A DNA stretch of 64,000 nucleotides from Verrucomicrobiota bacterium (GTDB taxonomy: Bacteria > Verrucomicrobiota > Verrucomicrobiia > Chthoniobacterales > UBA10450): assembly GCA_019244415.1 (NCBI GenBank), contig JAFASN010000100.1:1-64000 (forward strand), given 5' to 3'. The notes beneath the pieces were generated by a model that did no database searches, had not been told where the DNA came from, and was given only the letters and a program-made list of their open reading frames with translations. Below are positions 9,585 to 46,369 of this stretch, piece by piece. The first letter of the stretch is position 1. Each line of letters starts with the position of its first letter. A program made the position numbers and the translations under genes.

Positions 9585-9695
9585 TTATCCCGAGCGCAGC
9601 GAAGCGGAAATGCCAGTCCGGCTCGGACCGAGGAATCCCGGAATATAACCTTAAAGCTATCGCTGCGGGATTCCTCGACTTCGCTCGGAATGACA
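9585..9695. repeat. Family A palindromic element, copy 2
   Basis: The left arm is CCCGAGCGCAGCGAAGCGG, followed by an internal mini-hairpin AGTCCGGCTCGGACCG and a variable centre. The right arm is GGGATTCCTCGACTTCGCTC, then GGAATGACAG. It fills the gap between parB and the peptidase gene, and the peptidase ATG lies two bases beyond it. Confidence 0.85.
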
Positions 9696-20848: not shown

Positions 20849-20955
20849 GTCATTCTGAGCCGAGTGAAACGGAAATGCCAGTCCGGCTCGGACCGAACGT
20901 TGCGTCAGCTTCAAGGTTGCACGTCGCGATTCCTCGACTTCGCTTGGGATGACGG
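20849..20955. repeat. Family A palindromic element, copy 3
   Basis: It starts GTCATTCTGAGCCGAG, contains the AGTCCGGCTCGGACCG mini-hairpin, and ends with ATTCCTCGACTTCGCTTGG followed by GATGAC. It fills the intercistronic gap between exbB and exbD, so it is probably transcribed within the operon. Confidence 0.85.
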
Positions 20956-29690: not shown

Positions 29691-31673
29691 ATGATTGCGC
29701 TGCGCGACAGTATCGGCTCCGGCTTTGTTGAGAAGAGCGAAACGATTTTCTCGCCCGGTGGTTTGCTGGCAAAAGCGCGCAACTTCGAGGTCCGGCCGCA
29801 GCAGCAGGCGATGGCGGGAGCAATCGCGCGTGCGCTCGAAGAAGAGCGGCATCTGGTTGTCGAAGCGGGAACCGGCGTTGGCAAATCGCTCGCCTATCTG
29901 GTGCCGTCGGTGCTGTTCGCGCTGGAGAAGAAGAAGAAGGCGATCATTTCAACACACACGATCAACCTTCAGGAACAGCTGCTTCACAAAGACATCCCCA
30001 TTCTGAAGAAAATCCTGCCCGTGGAATTCGAAGCCGCGCTGATGAAAGGCCGGCAAAATTATCTTTGCCCGCGGCGGCTCGAGCGCGCCTTGCAGCAACA
30101 AAACGAACTCTTCACTGGCCCCGAGCAGAACGAGCTGGAGCGAATCGCTCTCTGGGCGGCGCGGACAAGCGATGGCACGCTCAGTGATCTTGCCTTCGAG
30201 CCAGACGCCAAAGTGTGGACGCAGGTTTGCAGCGAGGCGCACATCTGCGCCAAGAAAACATGCGGACAAAACGATCGCTGCTTTTACCAGAACGCTCGGC
30301 GGAGGCTGCTCGCGGCCGACCTGCTCGTGATCAATCACACGCTGCTTTTCATGCTGCTGGCGAGCGTGGACGCGATGGAAGAACGCGAGAGCGGTTTTAT
30401 TTTTCCTAACGACTTCCTGATTCTTGATGAAGCGCATACGGTCGAGCAAACGGCATCGCGCCAGATCGGCATCGGCGTGTCCCAATACGGGCTGCGCGCC
30501 ACCGTGCAGCGGCTCTACAACGCGCGCACGAAAAAAGGATTGTTTACCATCACGCGCGACGCCGACGGCGTTCGCCTCGCGGCCGAGCTGGCGGATGAAG
30601 TGGACAGATTCTTCGAGTCGGTCGGCGCCCGCTGCGAGTTTCGCAAAGGTCGCGAGTTCCGGATACGCGCGCGCGAGCTGGTCAACGACACCATCACTGG
30701 CCGGCTGATTGCGCTGCAAGCGCGCGTCGGTGAAGTGGTGAAACGGCAGAGCGACGAGATGCTGAAAGCCGAATTGCAGGAACTCGGACGTCGTGTCGCC
30801 GACGCTCGATTCGGCATTGCCGCCTTTCTCGAGCAATCAGCGCGCGAGCACGTCTATTGGGTCGAGAAAACAGGCAAGCTCGGACAGCTTTTAACGCTGA
30901 ACGCGGCGCCGGTGGACATTGCGCCGGTACTAAGGCGAATGCTTTTCCGCGATGGATGCAGTTGCGTGATGACGAGCGCGACGCTCGGAGTAGGACGCAA
31001 GGATTTGGCGTATTTTCGCAATCGCGTCGGCGCTAACGACGTCCAGCCGCTGCAACTCGGCAGCCCGTTTGATTTCGAGCGGCAGATGAAAATGTTTGTC
31101 GTTAGGAAAATGCCGGACCCGCGCGATGCCGGCTACGACCAAGCGCTGGCGCACTGGATCAAACATTTCGTCGCGGAGACGGACGGCCATGCCTTTGTAC
31201 TTTTCACCAGTTACCGCGCCATGCAGCAGATCGCGTCGCAGTTCGAGAATTACTGTGGCGAACATGATTTGAATCTGCTCGTGCAAGGCGGCGGTTTGCC
31301 ACGAACGCGTTTGCTGGAGCAGTTTAAGAGCACGCCGCGCAGCGTACTTTTCGGTACTGACAGCTTCTGGATGGGTGTGGATGTTCCGGGTGACGCACTG
31401 CGCAATGTCATCATCACGCGACTGCCATTCGCCGTGCCGGATCATCCGCTGATTGAAGCAAAACTGGAAATGATCGAGGCGCACGGCGGTGATCCGTTTC
31501 GCGAGTACTCGTTGCCGGAAGCGATCTTAAAAATGCGGCAGGGGGTCGGACGATTGATCCGGACCAAGAGCGATCATGGCATCATCGTAGTACTGGACAA
31601 TCGCATTGTAACGAAGCCATATGGCCGGGCATTTATGGCAGCGTTGCCGAAATGTCCGGTGGAAGTTTTGTAG
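29691..31673 (+). CDS. dinG: DinG/XPD-family ATP-dependent DNA helicase
   Basis: 660 residues of a superfamily 2 Fe-S helicase. Walker A AGTGVGKS is at 59-66. The cluster cysteines lie in YLCPRRLE, ICAKKTCGQNDRCFY (residues about 125-205). The DEAH box is in LILDEAHTVEQ. Helicase domain 2 has SFWMGVDVPGDAL and the motif VI QGVGRLIRTKSDHG. DinG unwinds 5'-tailed duplexes, R-loops and D-loops, and is SOS-regulated in E. coli. I see no LexA box before this copy. It sits inside the putatively inverted segment. Confidence 0.92.
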   Translation: MIALRDSIGSGFVEKSETIFSPGGLLAKARNFEVRPQQQAMAGAIARALEEERHLVVEAGTGVGKSLAYLVPSVLFALEKKKKAIISTHTINLQEQLLHKDIPILKKILPVEFEAALMKGRQNYLCPRRLERALQQQNELFTGPEQNELERIALWAARTSDGTLSDLAFEPDAKVWTQVCSEAHICAKKTCGQNDRCFYQNARRRLLAADLLVINHTLLFMLLASVDAMEERESGFIFPNDFLILDEAHTVEQTASRQIGIGVSQYGLRATVQRLYNARTKKGLFTITRDADGVRLAAELADEVDRFFESVGARCEFRKGREFRIRARELVNDTITGRLIALQARVGEVVKRQSDEMLKAELQELGRRVADARFGIAAFLEQSAREHVYWVEKTGKLGQLLTLNAAPVDIAPVLRRMLFRDGCSCVMTSATLGVGRKDLAYFRNRVGANDVQPLQLGSPFDFERQMKMFVVRKMPDPRDAGYDQALAHWIKHFVAETDGHAFVLFTSYRAMQQIASQFENYCGEHDLNLLVQGGGLPRTRLLEQFKSTPRSVLFGTDSFWMGVDVPGDALRNVIITRLPFAVPDHPLIEAKLEMIEAHGGDPFREYSLPEAILKMRQGVGRLIRTKSDHGIIVVLDNRIVTKPYGRAFMAALPKCPVEVL

Positions 31674-31738
31674 CGGTTTCACCGCTCACCGCTCTCGCCG
31701 CTAGAGAGCCGGAGGGACAGTAAAAAAATGAAAGAGAT

Positions 31739-31754
31739 ATGTTCACTTGAACAT
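31739..31754 (+). promoter_or_regulatory. LexA operator upstream of imuB C-terminal gene
   Basis: ATGTTC-ACTT-GAACAT with perfect arms. It ends 26 bases before the GTG at 31781, the same distance as between the imuA box and its ATG at 25117. The eleven bases before the start codon are also similar (CAGATTTCGCC here, CAGTTTGCGCC at imuA). Confidence 0.85.
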
Positions 31755-31780
31755 GTTCGTGCTCTGGCTCAGATTTCGCC

Positions 31781-32863
31781 GTGGCTCTGTTGCTTTCCGC
31801 CGTCCCGCCGCGTTCCCCCAAAGAACTCGAGCGCGCTCGCGAGACCGAGCGCATTCTCGGCATTCTACACCAGTGGGGCATTCACACCGTCGGACAGCTC
31901 GCACGCCTCGATCGCGATGATCTGGCCGCGCGCCTTGGCACGCGCGCAGTAGAGCTTTGGGAACGCGCCAATGGCAAAGCCACTCGCGTACTCAAGCTTG
32001 TGTCACCACCGGAATCGTTTGTGGAGAGCTTCGAGTTCGAAAACGAAATCGAAACGAGCGAGCCACTCCTTTTCATGCTGCGGCGGTTTTTGCAACAGCT
32101 CGCCACGCGCCTCGACGCGATTTACCTCGTCGCCAACGAACTTCGACTGCGCATCATGTTTTCTAATAAGTTGTACTACGAACGCCGCTTCAAAATCCCG
32201 CAGCCGACCAATAGCGAAGAAGTGCTTTTCCGAATGCTGTACACGCATCTGGAAAATTTTACATCGAAGCACCCGATCATCGCGGTGGCATTGGAAGCGC
32301 AGCCATCGAAACCGGCACGCGAGCAATTTCAGCTTTTCGAAACCGCGTTGCGCGATGCGGCACAATTGCACGAAACGCTCGCGCAGCTCGTCGGATTACT
32401 CGGCGCCGAGCGCGTCGGCACGCCAGTACTGGAAGAGACGTATCGGCCGGATGCATTCCGGATGGAAGCATTCCGGTGGGAATTTTGTCATTTCCGGAGC
32501 GCTTCTTCCTGTCATTCTGAGCGGAGCGACGCGAAGTCGAAGAATCCCGCCATGTTGCCTTTACGTGCCGCAACGGGATTCCTCGACTTCGCTCGGAATG
32601 ACGCATGTCGCATTCCGCTGCGCCGATTTCGTAAACGGGCAAACGCCACCGTGTTGCTGGAAAACAATCGCCCGGCACACGTCCGTTCTGACGAGGTCAA
32701 AAGCTTGAGCGCGGCGAATGACGGGCCGTTTCCGCTTTCCGGCAACTGGTGGGACGAGCGCGCCTGGTCACGAGTGGAATGGGATGTGGAATTGCAGGGC
32801 GCAACTGTCGCGCGTTGTCACTGCGATGAACAGGGCTGGGCCATGGATGGAATTTATGACTGA
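31781..32863 (+). CDS. imuB: ImuB, C-terminal half (thumb, little finger, clamp-binding tail)
   Basis: 360 residues from GTG 31781. After about 25 residues that I cannot align to ImuB, it enters the thumb helix-hairpin-helix LHQWGIHTVGQLARL, then the little-finger-like region and a clamp-binding-type QFQLF. A C-terminal ImuB tail follows, with LSGNWWDERAWSRVEWDV. The palm/fingers half is at 23882-24406 on the other strand. About 30 residues (SCHSERSDAK ... FARNDA) are encoded by a family A repeat inserted in frame. Own LexA box upstream, dnaE2 88 bases downstream. No internal stops, so a functional split protein is possible; decay is the alternative. Confidence 0.8.
   Translation: MALLLSAVPPRSPKELERARETERILGILHQWGIHTVGQLARLDRDDLAARLGTRAVELWERANGKATRVLKLVSPPESFVESFEFENEIETSEPLLFMLRRFLQQLATRLDAIYLVANELRLRIMFSNKLYYERRFKIPQPTNSEEVLFRMLYTHLENFTSKHPIIAVALEAQPSKPAREQFQLFETALRDAAQLHETLAQLVGLLGAERVGTPVLEETYRPDAFRMEAFRWEFCHFRSASSCHSERSDAKSKNPAMLPLRAATGFLDFARNDACRIPLRRFRKRANATVLLENNRPAHVRSDEVKSLSAANDGPFPLSGNWWDERAWSRVEWDVELQGATVARCHCDEQGWAMDGIYD
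32511..32602. repeat. Family A palindromic element, copy 4, inside imuB
   Basis: It starts GTCATTCTGAGCGGAG and ends GATTCCTCGACTTCGCTCGG then AATGAC. Read in the imuB frame it has no stop codon and adds about 30 residues between EAFRWEF and the NATVLLENNRPAHV segment. The downstream frame is preserved. Confidence 0.88.
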
Positions 32864-32867
32864 ACGT

Positions 32868-32945
32868 CTATTACGAGTACGAATAATGAGTACGAGCGAC
32901 TCTTTGCCATGCTCGTGCTCCTGCTCGTAATCGTGCTCGAGGAAA
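32868..32945. other. Low-complexity dyad upstream of dnaE2
   Basis: The left part reads ACGAGTACGAATAATGAGTA then CGAGCG; the right part reads CATGCTCGTGCTCCTGC then TCGTAATCGTGCTCG. The right part is a near reverse complement of the left, so the transcript can fold into a loose hairpin between imuB and dnaE2. A related run, GACGAGTACGAGCACGAACA, occurs near 59655. Confidence 0.5.
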
Positions 32946-32951
32946 TGCGCG

Positions 32952-35900
32952 ATGTCCTACTGCGAATTGCACGCCGCCAGCGCCTTCAGCTTTTTGCGCG
33001 GCGCATCATCGCCTGAGCAGCTGGCGGAAGTCGCGGCGGAATTAGAATTGGCCGCCGTTGCGTTGCTCGATCGCAACGGCGTTTACGGATCGCAGCGTTT
33101 TGCCGTCGCGTGTGTCGAGCGAGGCATTCGCGCCATTCACGGCGCGGAATTAACCATGGAAGACGCGAGCGTACTTCCAGTAATTGTGGCATCGCGCACC
33201 GGCTACGAAAATCTTTGTTCGCTGCTCACGGAAGCGCATTTGCGCAGTGAAGTGAAAGGCGATTGCGCCGTGCGCTACGATGAGCTGCCACAGTTTGCAG
33301 ATGGATTAATCGCGCTTCTCGGCGCGTCGCAACTGCGTCCGGGGAGCGCACGCGACCCGCGTGCTGTTTGCGGCGACTCACCGCAAACTGCAAGGGAGAA
33401 GCGCGTTCGACGCGTCGCCCACCGGAGCAAGACAGTCACGTGCGCTCCCCAATCCGCGGAACGCTGCGCGCAGATTGTGATCGATGCTTTCGGCCGCGAA
33501 AACGTTCACGTCGAGCTCCAGCGGCATTTCCTGCGCGGCGAAGAACGCATTAATCGCGAGCTAATCGATCTCGCGTCGGAATTTCGTCTGCCGATCATCG
33601 CCAGCAACGGCGTTCAGTACGCCAGGCCGTACGGCCGCCAGGTACTCGATGTGTTCACCTGCATTCGCGAGCACACGCACCTCGATCTCGCCGGCAAGCT
33701 CCTCACCCAAAACGCCGAGCGCCATCTTAAATCCGACGGGGAAATGCGAGCCATCTTTCGCGATTTACCCGATGCGATCACCAACACCGAGGCGCTCGCC
33801 GATCGCGTCCAGTTCTCGTTAGAAAATATCGGCTACGAATTTCCCGAGTTCGACGTGCCGGATGGCCACACCATGAATTCATTCCTGCGCCGCATCGTAC
33901 TTTTCGGAGCGCAGCAGCGTTACGAATCGATCAGCAAACGCGTGAAACAGCAGCTCGAGTTCGAGCTCGCACTCATCACCAAACTCGGTTTCGCCGGCTA
34001 TTTCCTCATCGTCTGGGACATCGTGAATTTCTGCCGCGAAAACGACATCATGGTGCAGGGCCGCGGCAGCGCGGCGAACAGCGCCGTCTGTTTTTGCCTC
34101 GGCATCACGCCGGTCGATCCCATTTCGAATCATCTCGTCTTCGAACGTTTCCTCAACGAAAGCCGCAAAGGTTGGCCGGACATTGACCTCGATCTGCCCA
34201 GCGGCGACCGGCGCGAGCGCGTGATCCAAGAAGTGTACCGCCGTTACGGCAGACACGGCGCGGCCATGACCGCGAACGTCATTACTTATCGCGGCAAAAG
34301 CGCCGCACGCGAGATCGGCAAAGCGCTTAATTTTTCGCCCAGCATTCTCGACCGCTTCTCGCACCTGTTCGCCAGCGGCGATTTCCCGCACACGCTCGAG
34401 CTCGAGGCGCAGATCGAGCAGGCGGGTTTGCCGAAAGCGCATCCGCGCATGCCGGCGTTCGTCGGTTTATATCATGCTATCTATAGCCTGCCGCGCCACC
34501 TCGGCCAGCACAGCGGCGGCATGATTATTTGCCAGCACAAGCTGAGCAAATTCGTGCCGCTGGAGAACGCGTCGATGCCGGGGCGCGTGGTCGCGCAATG
34601 GGACAAGGACGATTGCGAAGACCTCGGCATCGTAAAGGTGGACCTGCTCGGCCTCGGCATGATGTCAGTGATGCAAGATGCGTTTGAGCTTTGCCGCGAG
34701 CGTGGCCGACCGCTTGATTTGGCGCACATCCCGAAAGACGACGCGCGTACATTCGAGATAATGCAAATGGCGGACACGATTGGCGTTTTTCAAATCGAGA
34801 GCCGCGCGCAAATGGCCACCTTGCCGCGGCTGAAGCCGAAATGTTTTTACGATGTCGTGATCGAAGTCGCGATCATCCGGCCGGGGCCGATCCAGGGCGA
34901 CATGGTGCACCCGTACTTAGCGCGGCGCGCGGGCAAAGAGCCGGTCACGTTTTTCGATGAACGATTACGTCCCGTACTTGAGCGCACACTCGGCGTGCCG
35001 TTGTTCCAGGAGCAGATGCTCAAGATCGCGATGATCATGGCTAATTTTTCCGGCGACGAAGCGGAGGAATTGCGCCGCGCGCTCAGCTTTCATCGTTCTG
35101 AGGAACGGATGAAGCGGGTGAGCGTGAAGCTGCGCGATGCCATGGCGCGCAACAACGTTGCGTCCGACGTGATCGACAAAGTACTGCACTCGATCACGTC
35201 ATTCGCGCTCTACGGATTTCCCGAGTCGCACGCCATCAGCTTCGCCATTCTCGCGTATGGCAGCGCGTACTTGAAAGCGCATCGCGCGCCGGAGTTTTAC
35301 GCCAGCCTGATCAACAATCAGCCGATGGGTTTTTATTCGCCGGCGACGATCGTGGTAGATGCGCGGCGACATGGAGTGAAAGTGAAGCCGGTGTGCGTGG
35401 CAAAATCGGAATGGAATTGCACGGTGTTATCCGATGACACAATCCGGCTCGGTTTTTGTGTGATGAATGGATTGAACCGCGAACACGCCGACGAGTTGGT
35501 GCGCGAGCGAAATGTGCAGCCGTTTCTTTCGCTGGAAGATTTCCGGCAACGCGTGCCGCTGACGAAAGACGAACTACGCGGCCTGGCGAATCTCGGGGCG
35601 CTGAATTGTTTCGAGGAACATCGGCGAAGTGCGATGTGGAAAGTAGAGGAAACGCCGCATGACGATCTGTGGGCACGCCGATCTCTGGGTAGCGCACGCG
35701 ACTCGCGTGCAGTTTGCGGCGACTCGCCGCAATCTGTGCGAAAGAGAAGCGTTCCGCGGGTCGCGGAACGCAGCACGCGAGGTCGCGTGCGCTCCCCGGA
35801 GTCGTGGTCGCACGCGATAGACAATGCGGCACCGCTAAGTCCGATGACCTTGCCCGAGCGCGTTAACGCAGATTACGCGCAAATGAATCTCACCACCGGG

Positions 35901-36257
35901 CCGCATCCGATGCAAATGCTGCGTTCGCGATTGCCCGATGTGTGGCGCGCGAGCGATCTGCCGCACGCGAAACACGGCTCGACCATTCGCATCGCCGGCA
36001 ACGTCATTTGCCGTCAGCGCCCCGGCACGGCGAAAGGTTTTGTCTTCATCAGCCTCGAAGACGAGACCGGCGTCTCGAACGCAATTGTCACGCCCGATCT
36101 CTTCGAGCGCACGCGTCTGCTCATCACCGAAGAACCATTCCTCGTAATCGAAGGCGAAGTACAAAACACCGATAATGTGGTACTGATTAAAACGGAGAAA
36201 ATCCTCCCGCTAACGAATCACGGCCTGCTCGGCTCCGAGTCGCACGATTTTCACTGA
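32952..36257 (+). CDS. dnaE2: Error-prone DNA polymerase III alpha subunit DnaE2 (ImuC)
   Basis: 1101 residues. An N-terminal PHP domain opens with YCELHAASAFSFLRGASSPE. The C-family palm has VQGRGSAANSAVCFCLGI and the catalytic Asp pair in WPDIDLDLPSG. A helix-hairpin-helix and OB-fold region end the protein. DnaE2 is the polymerase of the ImuA-ImuB-DnaE2 translesion complex. Two family B elements are inserted in frame, adding about 37 residues each: at about residues 130-167 in the PHP domain and about 912-949 before the OB fold. Without them the length (about 1027) is normal for the family. It follows the imuB C-terminal gene by 88 bases, with GAGGA before its ATG, and probably shares its SOS promoter. 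Confidence 0.94.
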   Translation: MSYCELHAASAFSFLRGASSPEQLAEVAAELELAAVALLDRNGVYGSQRFAVACVERGIRAIHGAELTMEDASVLPVIVASRTGYENLCSLLTEAHLRSEVKGDCAVRYDELPQFADGLIALLGASQLRPGSARDPRAVCGDSPQTAREKRVRRVAHRSKTVTCAPQSAERCAQIVIDAFGRENVHVELQRHFLRGEERINRELIDLASEFRLPIIASNGVQYARPYGRQVLDVFTCIREHTHLDLAGKLLTQNAERHLKSDGEMRAIFRDLPDAITNTEALADRVQFSLENIGYEFPEFDVPDGHTMNSFLRRIVLFGAQQRYESISKRVKQQLEFELALITKLGFAGYFLIVWDIVNFCRENDIMVQGRGSAANSAVCFCLGITPVDPISNHLVFERFLNESRKGWPDIDLDLPSGDRRERVIQEVYRRYGRHGAAMTANVITYRGKSAAREIGKALNFSPSILDRFSHLFASGDFPHTLELEAQIEQAGLPKAHPRMPAFVGLYHAIYSLPRHLGQHSGGMIICQHKLSKFVPLENASMPGRVVAQWDKDDCEDLGIVKVDLLGLGMMSVMQDAFELCRERGRPLDLAHIPKDDARTFEIMQMADTIGVFQIESRAQMATLPRLKPKCFYDVVIEVAIIRPGPIQGDMVHPYLARRAGKEPVTFFDERLRPVLERTLGVPLFQEQMLKIAMIMANFSGDEAEELRRALSFHRSEERMKRVSVKLRDAMARNNVASDVIDKVLHSITSFALYGFPESHAISFAILAYGSAYLKAHRAPEFYASLINNQPMGFYSPATIVVDARRHGVKVKPVCVAKSEWNCTVLSDDTIRLGFCVMNGLNREHADELVRERNVQPFLSLEDFRQRVPLTKDELRGLANLGALNCFEEHRRSAMWKVEETPHDDLWARRSLGSARDSRAVCGDSPQSVRKRSVPRVAERSTRGRVRSPESWSHAIDNAAPLSPMTLPERVNADYAQMNLTTGPHPMQMLRSRLPDVWRASDLPHAKHGSTIRIAGNVICRQRPGTAKGFVFISLEDETGVSNAIVTPDLFERTRLLITEEPFLVIEGEVQNTDNVVLIKTEKILPLTNHGLLGSESHDFH
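33341..33450. repeat. Family B multi-hairpin element, copy 1, inside dnaE2
   Basis: 110 bases bounded by GGGGAGCGCACG and its exact reverse complement CGTGCGCTCCCC. Inside are hairpins GCACGCG-ACC-CGCGTGC and GTTTGCGG-CGACTCA-CCGCAAAC plus a less perfect third. The encoded peptide begins GSARDPRAVCGDSPQ, the same frame as copy 2. It lies in the PHP domain region. Confidence 0.9.
35688..35797. repeat. Family B multi-hairpin element, copy 2, inside dnaE2
   Basis: Also 110 bases, from GGGTAGCGCACGCG to CGCGTGCGCTCCCC. Internal hairpins are GCACGCG-ACT-CGCGTGC, TTGCGGCG-ACT-CGCCGCAA and GCGTTCCGCG-GGT-CGCGGAACGC. Arms and loops vary together relative to copy 1 while pairing is retained. The encoded peptide begins GSARDSRAVCGDSPQ. 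Confidence 0.9.
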
Positions 36258-36387
36258 TTGATATCGTGCGCAATACGGCTGCGACTCAGCGAACTCTGCG
36301 CGTCCTGCACATTACCCCGAACGAGCACTTTCATCTCGCCCGGCAAACACCTGTTTCATCCGACCGCTATTGAATGATCAGAGAGCG

Positions 36388-37158
36388 TCACATCGGCGCC
36401 GCCGCAGCGACTTCGCGGCCGAGCAGCATGCCACGATACGCGAACTCGTTCTCACGAAGCGCCCTCGCATATGTGTCAAACCTGTCCGCCTGAAATGAGC
36501 CGCCATGCATCGGGTGGACCCAGGCTGGGCTGAGCTTCTGCACCCGATCGATAGCATCGCGGACCGGCGATTCATGAGCGAAAATGCCCGCCGCGCGATA
36601 CAGATCCAGCATTGGCACTGAAAGATCCTCGGTCACTATCGGCGGCTGGTCGGCTGGCTGAATGAACAGATCAGACGGAAACAAGCTTCGCGTTGTTTGT
36701 TCAAAAATCATCATTGAATCCCAATGATGAACGTGCGGCGTTTCGATGAATTGCAGAGTGTGCTTGCCCAGCACCAGCGTTTCACCGTCACGAAAGCCGT
36801 GCGCGCGCTCGGCCATTCCGAAGCCCGCAGCATTGAGCTGAATGGAGAGAAGAGAACCACCGAGTTCGCATTGCGGTGCAGCCTTCATGAAACGCTCCAT
36901 GCCGCCATTTTCGTCTCCTTCCCAATGCAACAAAATGATGCGGCTTAGTGTCGCCGGATCGAGCACCTCGCCGATTGCATTGCGCACATCATCGTACAGG
37001 TGATGCATGCCAGTGTGAATCAGCGCAGGTCGCTCATCCGCAATCAGGAATTGGTTGAAGGTGATACCGTATGGTTCCTGCCAGGTGGAGATGCGGTAAA
37101 TCCCGTCAACGATTTCATCGAGGCGTGTGGAGGCGGAGTTCATCACCGGAGTCATCAT
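36388..37158 (-). CDS. ODP-type metallo-beta-lactamase-fold protein (flavodiiron-like, no flavodoxin domain)
   Basis: 256 residues. The metal ligand pattern is HWEGDENGG (an H-x-E-x-D motif as in flavodiiron proteins, not the HxHxDH of hydrolases), with further ligands in ETPHVHHWDSM, FPSDLF and WVHPMHGG. This suggests an oxygen- or NO-reducing diiron centre or a related redox sensor. The flavodoxin domain that normally supplies electrons is missing, so a separate partner would be needed. The neighbours (dnaE2, gnd) give no hint. The 130 bases on the dnaE2 side hold nothing I recognise. Confidence 0.75.
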   Translation of the reverse strand: MMTPVMNSASTRLDEIVDGIYRISTWQEPYGITFNQFLIADERPALIHTGMHHLYDDVRNAIGEVLDPATLSRIILLHWEGDENGGMERFMKAAPQCELGGSLLSIQLNAAGFGMAERAHGFRDGETLVLGKHTLQFIETPHVHHWDSMMIFEQTTRSLFPSDLFIQPADQPPIVTEDLSVPMLDLYRAAGIFAHESPVRDAIDRVQKLSPAWVHPMHGGSFQADRFDTYARALRENEFAYRGMLLGREVAAAAPM

Positions 37159-37328
37159 TTAACTGATTTCGAAGTTGTACGAGTGGCGGAAGGCAATGCT
37201 ACTACAATCAAATCGATAGGTTTTCTGGATTTCAGCAGTCGGTGGTGTTCGGGCGGTATCGTGAAGCAGCACTGCGGCGCGCGTCTTCCACTGGAACCTC
37301 ACCGCGGCCGCTCTGCCAACAAGTCGCT

Positions 37329-38804
37329 TTACTCGCCCGCGTGCCGTTTGGAAGTTGGCTTTGGCGGCGAGATTTCCTGCGCGGGCGCATCGCCGAGCCA
37401 GTCGGTGTGGAAGATGCCGGGCTTGTCCACGCGCTCGTAAGTGTGGGCGCCGAAGAAATCGCGTTGCGCTTGCAGCAGGTTCGCCGGGAGGCGCGCCGAA
37501 CGATAACTGTCGAAGTACGCAAGCGACGCGCTGAACGCCGGCACGGCGACACCGTGCTCGACCGCGGCAGATACTGCATCGCGCCAGTTATTTTGTGTCT
37601 TGCCGATGATGTCACTAAAGTACGAATCGAAGAGCAGATTGTGGAGCGCTTTATCGCGCGCATAAGCATCGGCGATGCGGTTGAGGAATTTTGCCCGAAT
37701 GATGCAACCGCCGCGCCAGATTCGCGCGATGCCGCCGAAATCGAGATTCCACTTATAGCTGAGACTCGCCGCACCGAGCAGCTCCATTCCTTGCGCGTAG
37801 CTGATAATTTTCGAAGCATAGAGCGCGTCGTGTACTTGCTGGACGAGCTGCTTTTTATCGCCGGTAAACTTCGCGAGCTGCGGCTGGGGCAGAATCTTTG
37901 ACGCCTCGACGCGCTCATCTTTGCGTGAGGAAATCACGCGCGCTTCGACTGCTGCGTTAATCGTGGAGATGACGACTGACTGCGTGAGCGCGGATTGCAG
38001 TGTCCACAAACCAGTTCCTTTCTGGCCGGCTTTGTCGAGAATGACATCGACCAGTGGCTTGCCTGTATCCGGATCTATTTTGCGGAAGATTTCGCCGGTG
38101 ATTTCGATCAAATAACTCTCCAAGGCACCGCGATTCCAATCAGTGAAAATGTCCGCTAGCTCGTCAGCCGAGAGCCCGAGTACGTTGTTCATGATGGCGT
38201 AGGCTTCGCAGATCAACTGCATATCGCCGTACTCGATGCCGTTGTGCACCATTTTGACATAATGGCCGGCGCCATCTGGGCCGATGTACATACAGCACGG
38301 CTCGCCATCCACTTGCGCGGCGATTCTGGTGAAGATCGGCGCGATGATGTCGTAGCCTTCGCGCGAGCCGCCCGGCATGAGCGAGGGGCCCTTAAGCGCG
38401 CCTTCTTCGCCGCCGGAAACGCCGCAGCCGATGTAATGAATACCGCGCGCCTCGACTTCCTTGCAACGGCGTTGCGTGTCGGTGAAAAGTGAATTGCCGC
38501 CATCAATCAGCACGTCGCCTTCTTCGAGCAACGGCAACACTTCACCGATCACCTGATCAACCGGGCTGCCCGCTTTGATCATCATCATCGCTTTGCGCGG
38601 CCGCTTCAGCGCGCCGATGAACTCCTCGATCGTCTTTGTCGGCGTGATATTTTTCCCTTTCGCTCGCGTAGCGGCGAAGTTTTCTGTCACCGATGTGGTG
38701 CGATTAAACGCGGCCACGGAGAAGCCCTTTGATTCCATGTTAAGGACGAGGTTTTCGCCCATCACCGCGAGGCCAATGAGGCCAATATCCGATTGCGTCG
38801 TCAT
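37329..38804 (-). CDS. gnd: 6-phosphogluconate dehydrogenase, decarboxylating
   Basis: This enzyme oxidises 6-phosphogluconate to ribulose 5-phosphate and CO2 with NADP in the pentose phosphate pathway. 491 residues from ATG 38804. The NADP fold opens IGLIGLAVMGENLVLNM, the substrate loop has GCGVSGGEEGALKGPSLMPGG, and the catalytic lysine lies in YVKMVHNGIEYGDMQL. The C-terminal helical domain has RGGCIIRAKFL and ends with a basic Lys/His tail. An in-frame start 69 bases upstream adds a poorly conserved leader. It is divergent from moaE. Confidence 0.95.
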   Translation of the reverse strand: MTTQSDIGLIGLAVMGENLVLNMESKGFSVAAFNRTTSVTENFAATRAKGKNITPTKTIEEFIGALKRPRKAMMMIKAGSPVDQVIGEVLPLLEEGDVLIDGGNSLFTDTQRRCKEVEARGIHYIGCGVSGGEEGALKGPSLMPGGSREGYDIIAPIFTRIAAQVDGEPCCMYIGPDGAGHYVKMVHNGIEYGDMQLICEAYAIMNNVLGLSADELADIFTDWNRGALESYLIEITGEIFRKIDPDTGKPLVDVILDKAGQKGTGLWTLQSALTQSVVISTINAAVEARVISSRKDERVEASKILPQPQLAKFTGDKKQLVQQVHDALYASKIISYAQGMELLGAASLSYKWNLDFGGIARIWRGGCIIRAKFLNRIADAYARDKALHNLLFDSYFSDIIGKTQNNWRDAVSAAVEHGVAVPAFSASLAYFDSYRSARLPANLLQAQRDFFGAHTYERVDKPGIFHTDWLGDAPAQEISPPKPTSKRHAGE

Positions 38805-46276: not shown

Positions 46277-46369
46277 GTCATCCTGAGCGCAGCGCAGCGG
46301 AGTCGAAGGATCCCGTGAAGTTCCCTGCAACCTTCGCCGCGGGATTCCTCGACTTCGCTCGGAATGACA
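46277..46369. repeat. Family A palindromic element, copy 6
   Basis: From GTCATCCTGAGCGCAGC to GGGATTCCTCGACTTCGC then TCGGAATGAC. It fills most of the gap between permeases 3 and 4 and ends seven bases before the permease 4 ATG on the minus strand. Confidence 0.88.

Follow-up and report, generated by a model that had tools for sequence, protein, structure and literature searches.

In-frame REPINs in dnaE2 of a Verrucomicrobiota bacterium and a putative matching RAYT encoded within alaS

The two palindromic inserts in the error-prone polymerase gene dnaE2 of a Verrucomicrobiota bacterium (genome G000, a 3.15 Mb draft) are very probably REPINs that were moved by a RAYT and are tolerated as in-frame insertions in loops of the protein. 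The REPIN is a non-autonomous element of two inverted REP units; behind the GGAG or GTAG head of each unit come two hairpins, and their 3-nt loops start with the same base. The RAYT belongs to the HUH/Y1 single-strand transposases and has E. coli TnpA-REP as a relative; it would identify the folded single strand through head and loops, cut beside a pyrimidine dinucleotide (CT preferred) and then move the unit. In this genome, the ACT-type RAYT is encoded in frame within the sole alaS. Survivors would be those insertions that keep the frame and land in tolerant loops, where their translation as a flexible peptide (GSARDSRA..GDSP..) may explain how dnaE2, uvrA, metH and alaS hold inserts without being destroyed. 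In sister species, the same loops have been taken by other REP families. The parts of this mechanism that we infer are mobilisation of the REPINs by the RAYT, the route through single strands, the position of the cut and the neutrality of the peptides in DnaE2. REPs are defined as extragenic elements and RAYTs are regarded as domesticated genes that stand by themselves and have an unclear mode of spread; in the present group of soil bacteria, REPs and even the transposase are housed inside proteins.

The window, that is, the whole stretch of 64,000 nucleotides analysed from contig JAFASN010000100.1, contains dnaE2 as an uninterrupted open reading frame of 1101 amino acids for an ImuC-type error-prone polymerase (profile NF004225, 1177.5 bits at a cut-off of 939; Table 1). 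The best named matches of the protein come from genomes of soil Verrucomicrobia, with Candidatus Udaeobacter at 73%. Pfam delineates the PHP domain (residues 5-192), DNA_pol3_alpha, the finger, HHH_6 (808-893) and OB (1013-1084); site 1 is located inside the PHP domain and site 2 between the HHH_6 and OB matches, in agreement with the original prediction, which had placed the elements in the PHP domain and ahead of the OB fold. The pN/pS of DnaE2 is 0.11-0.31, with 0.11-0.12 for the core against three congeners when the inserts are excluded, and the PDIDLDL motif is retained; purifying selection outside the inserts together with the intact motif thus marks a working gene rather than a wreck.

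Table 1. Features of the window (positions counted from its first nucleotide)
Feature	Position	Strand	Evidence or remark
dnaE2 with both elements in frame	32952..36257	+	NF004225, Pfam, pN/pS
REPIN copy 1, 110 bp, PHP-domain loop, ~aa 130-167	33341..33450	+	absent from outgroup DnaE2 and L060
Copy 1, 5' REP unit, hairpin 1, loop ACC	33348..33364	+	7/7 pairs
Copy 1, 5' REP unit, hairpin 2, loop ACT	33367..33387	+	8/9 pairs
Copy 1, inverted 3' REP unit, partly decayed	33404..33443	-	hairpin 1 4/7 pairs, hairpin 2 7/9 pairs
REPIN copy 2, 111 bp, HHH/OB linker, ~aa 912-949, head GTAG	35687..35797	+	absent from L061-L063 and outgroups
Copy 2, 5' REP unit, hairpin 1, loop ACT	35694..35710	+	7/7 pairs
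Copy 2, 5' REP unit, hairpin 2, loop ACT	35713..35733	+	8/9 pairs
Copy 2, inverted 3' REP unit, 4-nt loop ACCT in hairpin 1	35750..35790	-	7/7 and 9/9 pairs
imuB, adjoining dnaE2	31781..32863		one unrelated palindrome copy in frame
Unrelated palindrome, five copies	130-153, 9669-9692, 20928-20951, 32577-32600, 46343-46366		

Both inserts, 77-78% identical to each other, lie in frame at the places first proposed for them; the common length of 110 bases claimed there applies to copy 1, copy 2 being one base longer. Their ends are inverted (GGGGAGCGCACG / GGGTAGCGCACG), and folding gives z-scores between -4.8 and -8.8, a level that none of 200 shuffles attains. One common frame reads the two inserts (GSARDPRAVCGDSPQ and GSARDSRAVCGDSPQ), and the translations bear out the peptides predicted as GSARDxRAVCGDSPQ, the pattern from both copies being GSARD(P/S)RAVCGDSPQ. 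The TIRYT motif GGGGWSAS is absent from the ends, which read GGGGAGCG with C, not A, as the seventh base. A second, unrelated palindromic repeat with the arm CATTCCGAGCGAAGTCGAGGAATC occurs in five copies in the window where none is expected; its copy in imuB is read as the peptide CHSERSDAKSKNP.., and further in-frame copies of the repeat lie in UvrA and, in the congeners G007 and G010, at site 2 of dnaE2.

The family of the dnaE2 inserts extends well beyond this gene, as the search for further copies revealed: 54 BLAST matches correspond to about 27 positions in the own genome, and the family is found in 40 of 58 relatives, including all ten of the genus, the own and most other genomes being fragmented drafts. 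Its REP unit is composed of the head GGNAG and two hairpins with 3-nt loops, hairpin 1 of 7 bp and hairpin 2 of 9 bp, and two such units inverted around a spacer make up the full element of 102-140 bp. Under the REP head criterion of GTAG (or GTGG) positioned 0-2 nt before the stem, the head of copy 2 reads GTAG and stands one base ahead of the stem, that of copy 1 and most own units reads GGAG, and the heads in the T-loop sister family are mostly GTAG. In 78 of 176 units (only 44%), the head comes after a CT, which matches the CT cleavage by TnpA-REP proteins, some of which also require particular loop bases (PMC8266576).

Base pairing in the family is retained through sequence change. Among 27 distinct units of the own genome, 95.1% of the cells are paired, compared to 81.2% after shuffling, and 53 cells are changed on both sides, compared to 13.2 in the shuffles; hairpin 2 exhibits compensatory changes at seven of its nine pairs. 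Not one of 500 shuffles reaches any of these covariation measures, and sliding the partner destroys the signal. The earlier claim of pairing kept despite base changes is hence sustained at the level of the genome; the two dnaE2 copies taken alone support it weakly, with the 3' unit of copy 1 decayed. That the sites represent an ordinary variable loop of DnaE2, GC-rich and self-complementary by chance, can be considered refuted: the loop does vary among outgroups, but the same DNA recurs at about 27 positions of the genome and its stems covary. The suggestion of a structured RNA or DNA that moves stands for a structured DNA family. The RNA part lacks support, a search of Rfam with window positions 31000-37500 having returned no family match, and movement is deduced from the cognate RAYT and from empty sites. 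Neither a transposition event nor a polymorphism between strains was seen; the copies differ by at least 14%, except for a duplicated segment, and recent movement of the family is therefore unsupported by the sequences; owing to the diverged flanks, neither the exact junctions nor any duplicated target bases could be fixed. The exceptional segment is a REPIN that recurs nearly identically, flanks included, on two contigs (L004 and L037, on C122 and C44), either a segmental duplication or a mobile unit. An IS200/IS605-type tnpA is found close to the C44 copy; considered as a RAYT, it was rejected for scoring as IS200/IS605 instead.

The candidate transposase resides in the alaS reading frame of the same genome, where Y1_Tnp matches located a RAYT (profile NF047646, 81.5 bits at a cut-off of 80) that is flanked on both sides by ACT-loop REPs of the dnaE2 family. 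Contigs C22 and C96 each contain a part of this sole alaS; their ends overlap by 17 bp in frame, and the C22 part bears an additional in-frame REPIN. The RAYT is the only one of its clade in the genome, and just one ACT-type RAYT is known here. Within the 62 RAYT sequences analysed, drawn from this family and three other families of the order, the HUH histidines and the equivalents of W94, D100, R101 and R104 are present in all 62 and the catalytic tyrosine in 58. The structure model of the alaS RAYT (pLDDT 89) has E. coli TnpA-REP (4ER8) as its nearest fold, with a TM score of 0.74 by query; 4ER8 was also retrieved when the PDB was searched with a RAYT profile, and a sequence search of the PDB with one RAYT gave no match.

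Assignment of a transposase to its repeats is aided by the loops. Throughout all retrieved loci, the first loop base is equal in hairpins 1 and 2 of 90 out of 98 units, and the agreeing units are spread over A (21), C (24), G (22) and T (23). Mapped on the tree of the 62 RAYTs, the loop base of the flanking REPs changes 4 times, close to the minimum of 3 and compared to a shuffled mean of 19.7; the REPs upstream and downstream of one RAYT agree in 22 of 23 cases. Judged from these sequence relationships, the dnaE2 inserts are of the A (ACT) family, and the RAYT that matches it is the one in alaS of G000. RAYT columns 43, 68 and 89 track the loop base and are candidates for its recognition among clades that share descent. 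The series of A, C, G and T loops with matching transposases constitutes a natural set for testing how RAYTs choose their REPs.

At least 14 of the 27 positions in the own genome are inside verified genes and the rest are intergenic or unclear, a fraction based on retrieved loci and family models, with the loci found by similarity to one query. Besides the two in dnaE2, there are four in a fused tandem UvrA and, in AlaS, one REPIN and two REPs around the RAYT; the canonical UvrA, MetH, a FAD-oxidase/GlpC-like protein, HsdR and an integron integrase are further hosts. Hairpin 2 is read in the GDSP frame in 10 of 12 forward-read in-gene units (hand count; binomial 5e-4 at one third), which is moderate evidence of a frame preference given that the hypothesis was chosen after the fact. 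Extragenic placement, although part of the REP name, thus fails here, and it denotes a habit rather than a mechanism. The fused tandem UvrA (L214:4128-10754, contig C81) has 2208 amino acids and carries, all in frame, its four REP insertions as well as copies of the unrelated palindrome. Retention of the inserts for a benefit to the host, be it through altered activity of DnaE2 and UvrA (the mutator idea of PMC3733652) or through hairpins in the mRNA, could draw on the fact that several host genes serve DNA repair (dnaE2, two uvrA), a bias likewise found in PMC3733652; yet metH, alaS, hsdR, the FAD oxidase and the integron integrase are hosts as well, the peptide at a given site is not conserved between species and several congeners have no insert at given sites, all of which makes this explanation improbable.

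Published systems offer analogies to the REPIN-RAYT pair proposed here. Intragenic GTAG REPs were listed in 2013, many of them in DNA-repair genes and with DnaE2 and both uvrA of Opitutus terrae named (PMC3733652), and the dnaE2 inserts are therefore to be seen as a known kind in a new lineage. With the REPtron, the REPIN or GTAG-type REP plus RAYT (PMC3116915, PMC3733652, PMC8266576), they share inverted palindromic units around a spacer, a head tetranucleotide before a short-loop stem, a RAYT flanked by the same REP, the importance of loop bases and CT beside the head. They are distinct in having two same-loop hairpins per unit and mostly GGAG heads, in the RAYT being within a host gene and in at least 14 of 27 positions being in genes; in P. 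fluorescens SBW25, 14 of 1067 REP 16-mers overlap genes (PMC3116915). The O. terrae set resembles ours in its in-frame REPs in coding genes of a verrucomicrobium, DnaE2 and uvrA included; whole RAYTs in frame, separate loop families and turnover of families at one site across congeners set the present case apart from PMC3733652. The likeness to the RPEs of Rickettsia, noted in the original prediction, concerns the way of life only, namely palindromes translated within functional proteins, and the closest kind is REP/REPIN with RAYT. Relation to RPEs by descent would account for the same habit of in-frame palindromes in protein genes (PMC3733652), but is highly improbable: the element tracks the local RAYT in sequence, head motif and double-hairpin unit, no shared sequence is known, and RPE-4 and RPE-6 were grouped with CGTC repeats, which lack RAYTs (PMC3733652).

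The insertion sites were found empty in other genomes and differently filled in sister species. Outgroup DnaE2 proteins (L065, L067, L068, L071, L088) are without both inserts, L060 has none at site 1 and L061-L063 have no such insert at site 2. Within the genus, site 1 is occupied by the ACT family in G000, and by a GSAGCQPA family in G003, G004, G005, G007 and G010, while G008 and G009 have a GSARVSR family there. Site 4 of UvrA is empty in six congeners (EQL(T/N/S)RKRQR..) and filled with the ACT family in G000 and another family in G008. One might suppose instead a single ancient insertion per dnaE2 site that was later altered in place, by conversion or recombination between REP families or by loop mutation, seeing that nearly every species of the genus has something at site 1, that the right flank stays in register across families and that the families share their architecture and some stems. 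This is the less likely course, though one with a real chance of being correct, in view of three observations. Site 2 contains the same REP families in some congeners but the unrelated palindrome in G007 and G010; in recG of G004, a Q-type (G-loop) REP is nested within a V-type (T-loop) REP; and recG is without a RAYT in G000 and G001, its loop in congeners being either filled by one of two RAYT clades or empty, with the recG label changing nine times on the RAYT tree, at least five of these changes being forced by supported branches.

Residence of the transposase in a host gene extends beyond alaS in G000. A RAYT of this type is present in 56 of 83 genomes of the family at the search cut-off, and 54 of the 62 RAYTs are embedded in larger proteins (recG, 34; metH, 12 at two sites; alaS, 6; carB, 1; thrS, 1), as opposed to eight that are free-standing. 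Over the 45 codons ahead of the core, an in-frame ATG is found in only 7 of the 54 embedded but in 7 of the 8 free RAYTs; GTG or TTG codons are common, and an internal start may be possible. With a pN/pS of 0.09-0.19, similar to that of the flanking host gene, the embedded RAYT is under selection as a protein and is not a mere open frame. A RecG-RAYT model of middling quality (mean 65) has the RAYT folded at a pLDDT of ~70-83, the REP-encoded segments 366-418 and 560-588 below 50 and linker-like, and a RecG part that matches 1GM5. Assembly chimaeras were dismissed as the source, the same junctions occurring in many independent genomes and some contigs measuring at least 350 kb.

Across the phylum, RAYTs near the alaS one were detected in 7 of 289 genomes, all in frames of 730-1316 aa; the same alaS site is occupied in G165 and G254 and the same recG site in G286. 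Between G000 and G165, which belongs to another class, the RAYT is 68% and AlaS 51% identical, compared to 46% and 62%, respectively, between G000 and G018 of the same family. For the metH-B pair L209/L296, the dS is 0.47 in the RAYT and 1.2-1.3 in the host. The decoupling of RAYT from AlaS identity together with this gap in dS suggests that lineages have exchanged RAYTs at fixed sites.

The embedded RAYTs look to be new: whole and in frame in recG, metH, alaS, carB and thrS, they mostly lack a separate ATG, are conserved on a par with the host gene and re-occupy the same sites across classes. Our search of the open-licence literature, a weak basis for absence, yielded no account of in-frame RAYTs within recG, alaS or such genes; "a few unexpectedly long proteins" had been discarded as fusions or errors (PMC6006769). 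The RAYT clade may lead an intein-like life without splicing, in frame and mostly ATG-less in fixed loops of recG, metH, alaS, carB and thrS, hard to lose because a stop or frameshift kills the host gene, re-occupying the loops across classes and with REP ends shaped as a harmless linker. We offer this as a tentative idea that is somewhat more doubtful than probable. As with inteins bearing homing endonucleases, a nuclease domain is in frame in a conserved gene at the same sites across distant hosts. Unlike inteins, the sites are loops and not active sites, and the insert seems to be retained in the translated product. A Pfam scan of the alaS-RAYT frame returned AlaS domains and Y1_Tnp only, with no intein splicing domain. 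The recG, metH and alaS sites represent natural fusions that tolerate, and perhaps keep, a transposase domain. In these genomes, translated mobile DNA is part of protein models and domain annotation as well as of ancestral reconstructions.

Other RAYT clades (L165-L193) are mostly free-standing genes of ~150-290 aa, beside which a simple-pattern search found no REP of the present type. An RAYT-like domain is contained in a 916-aa frame resembling a restriction-modification protein (L200, contig C17 of G037), with another type of repeat around it. Eight genomes (L316-L322 and L324; G007, G009, G010, G013, G034, G064, G006 and G002) have a divergent RAYT-like domain in frame in carB, in the same part of the gene and near the position that the main-clade RAYT takes in G002 (L203).
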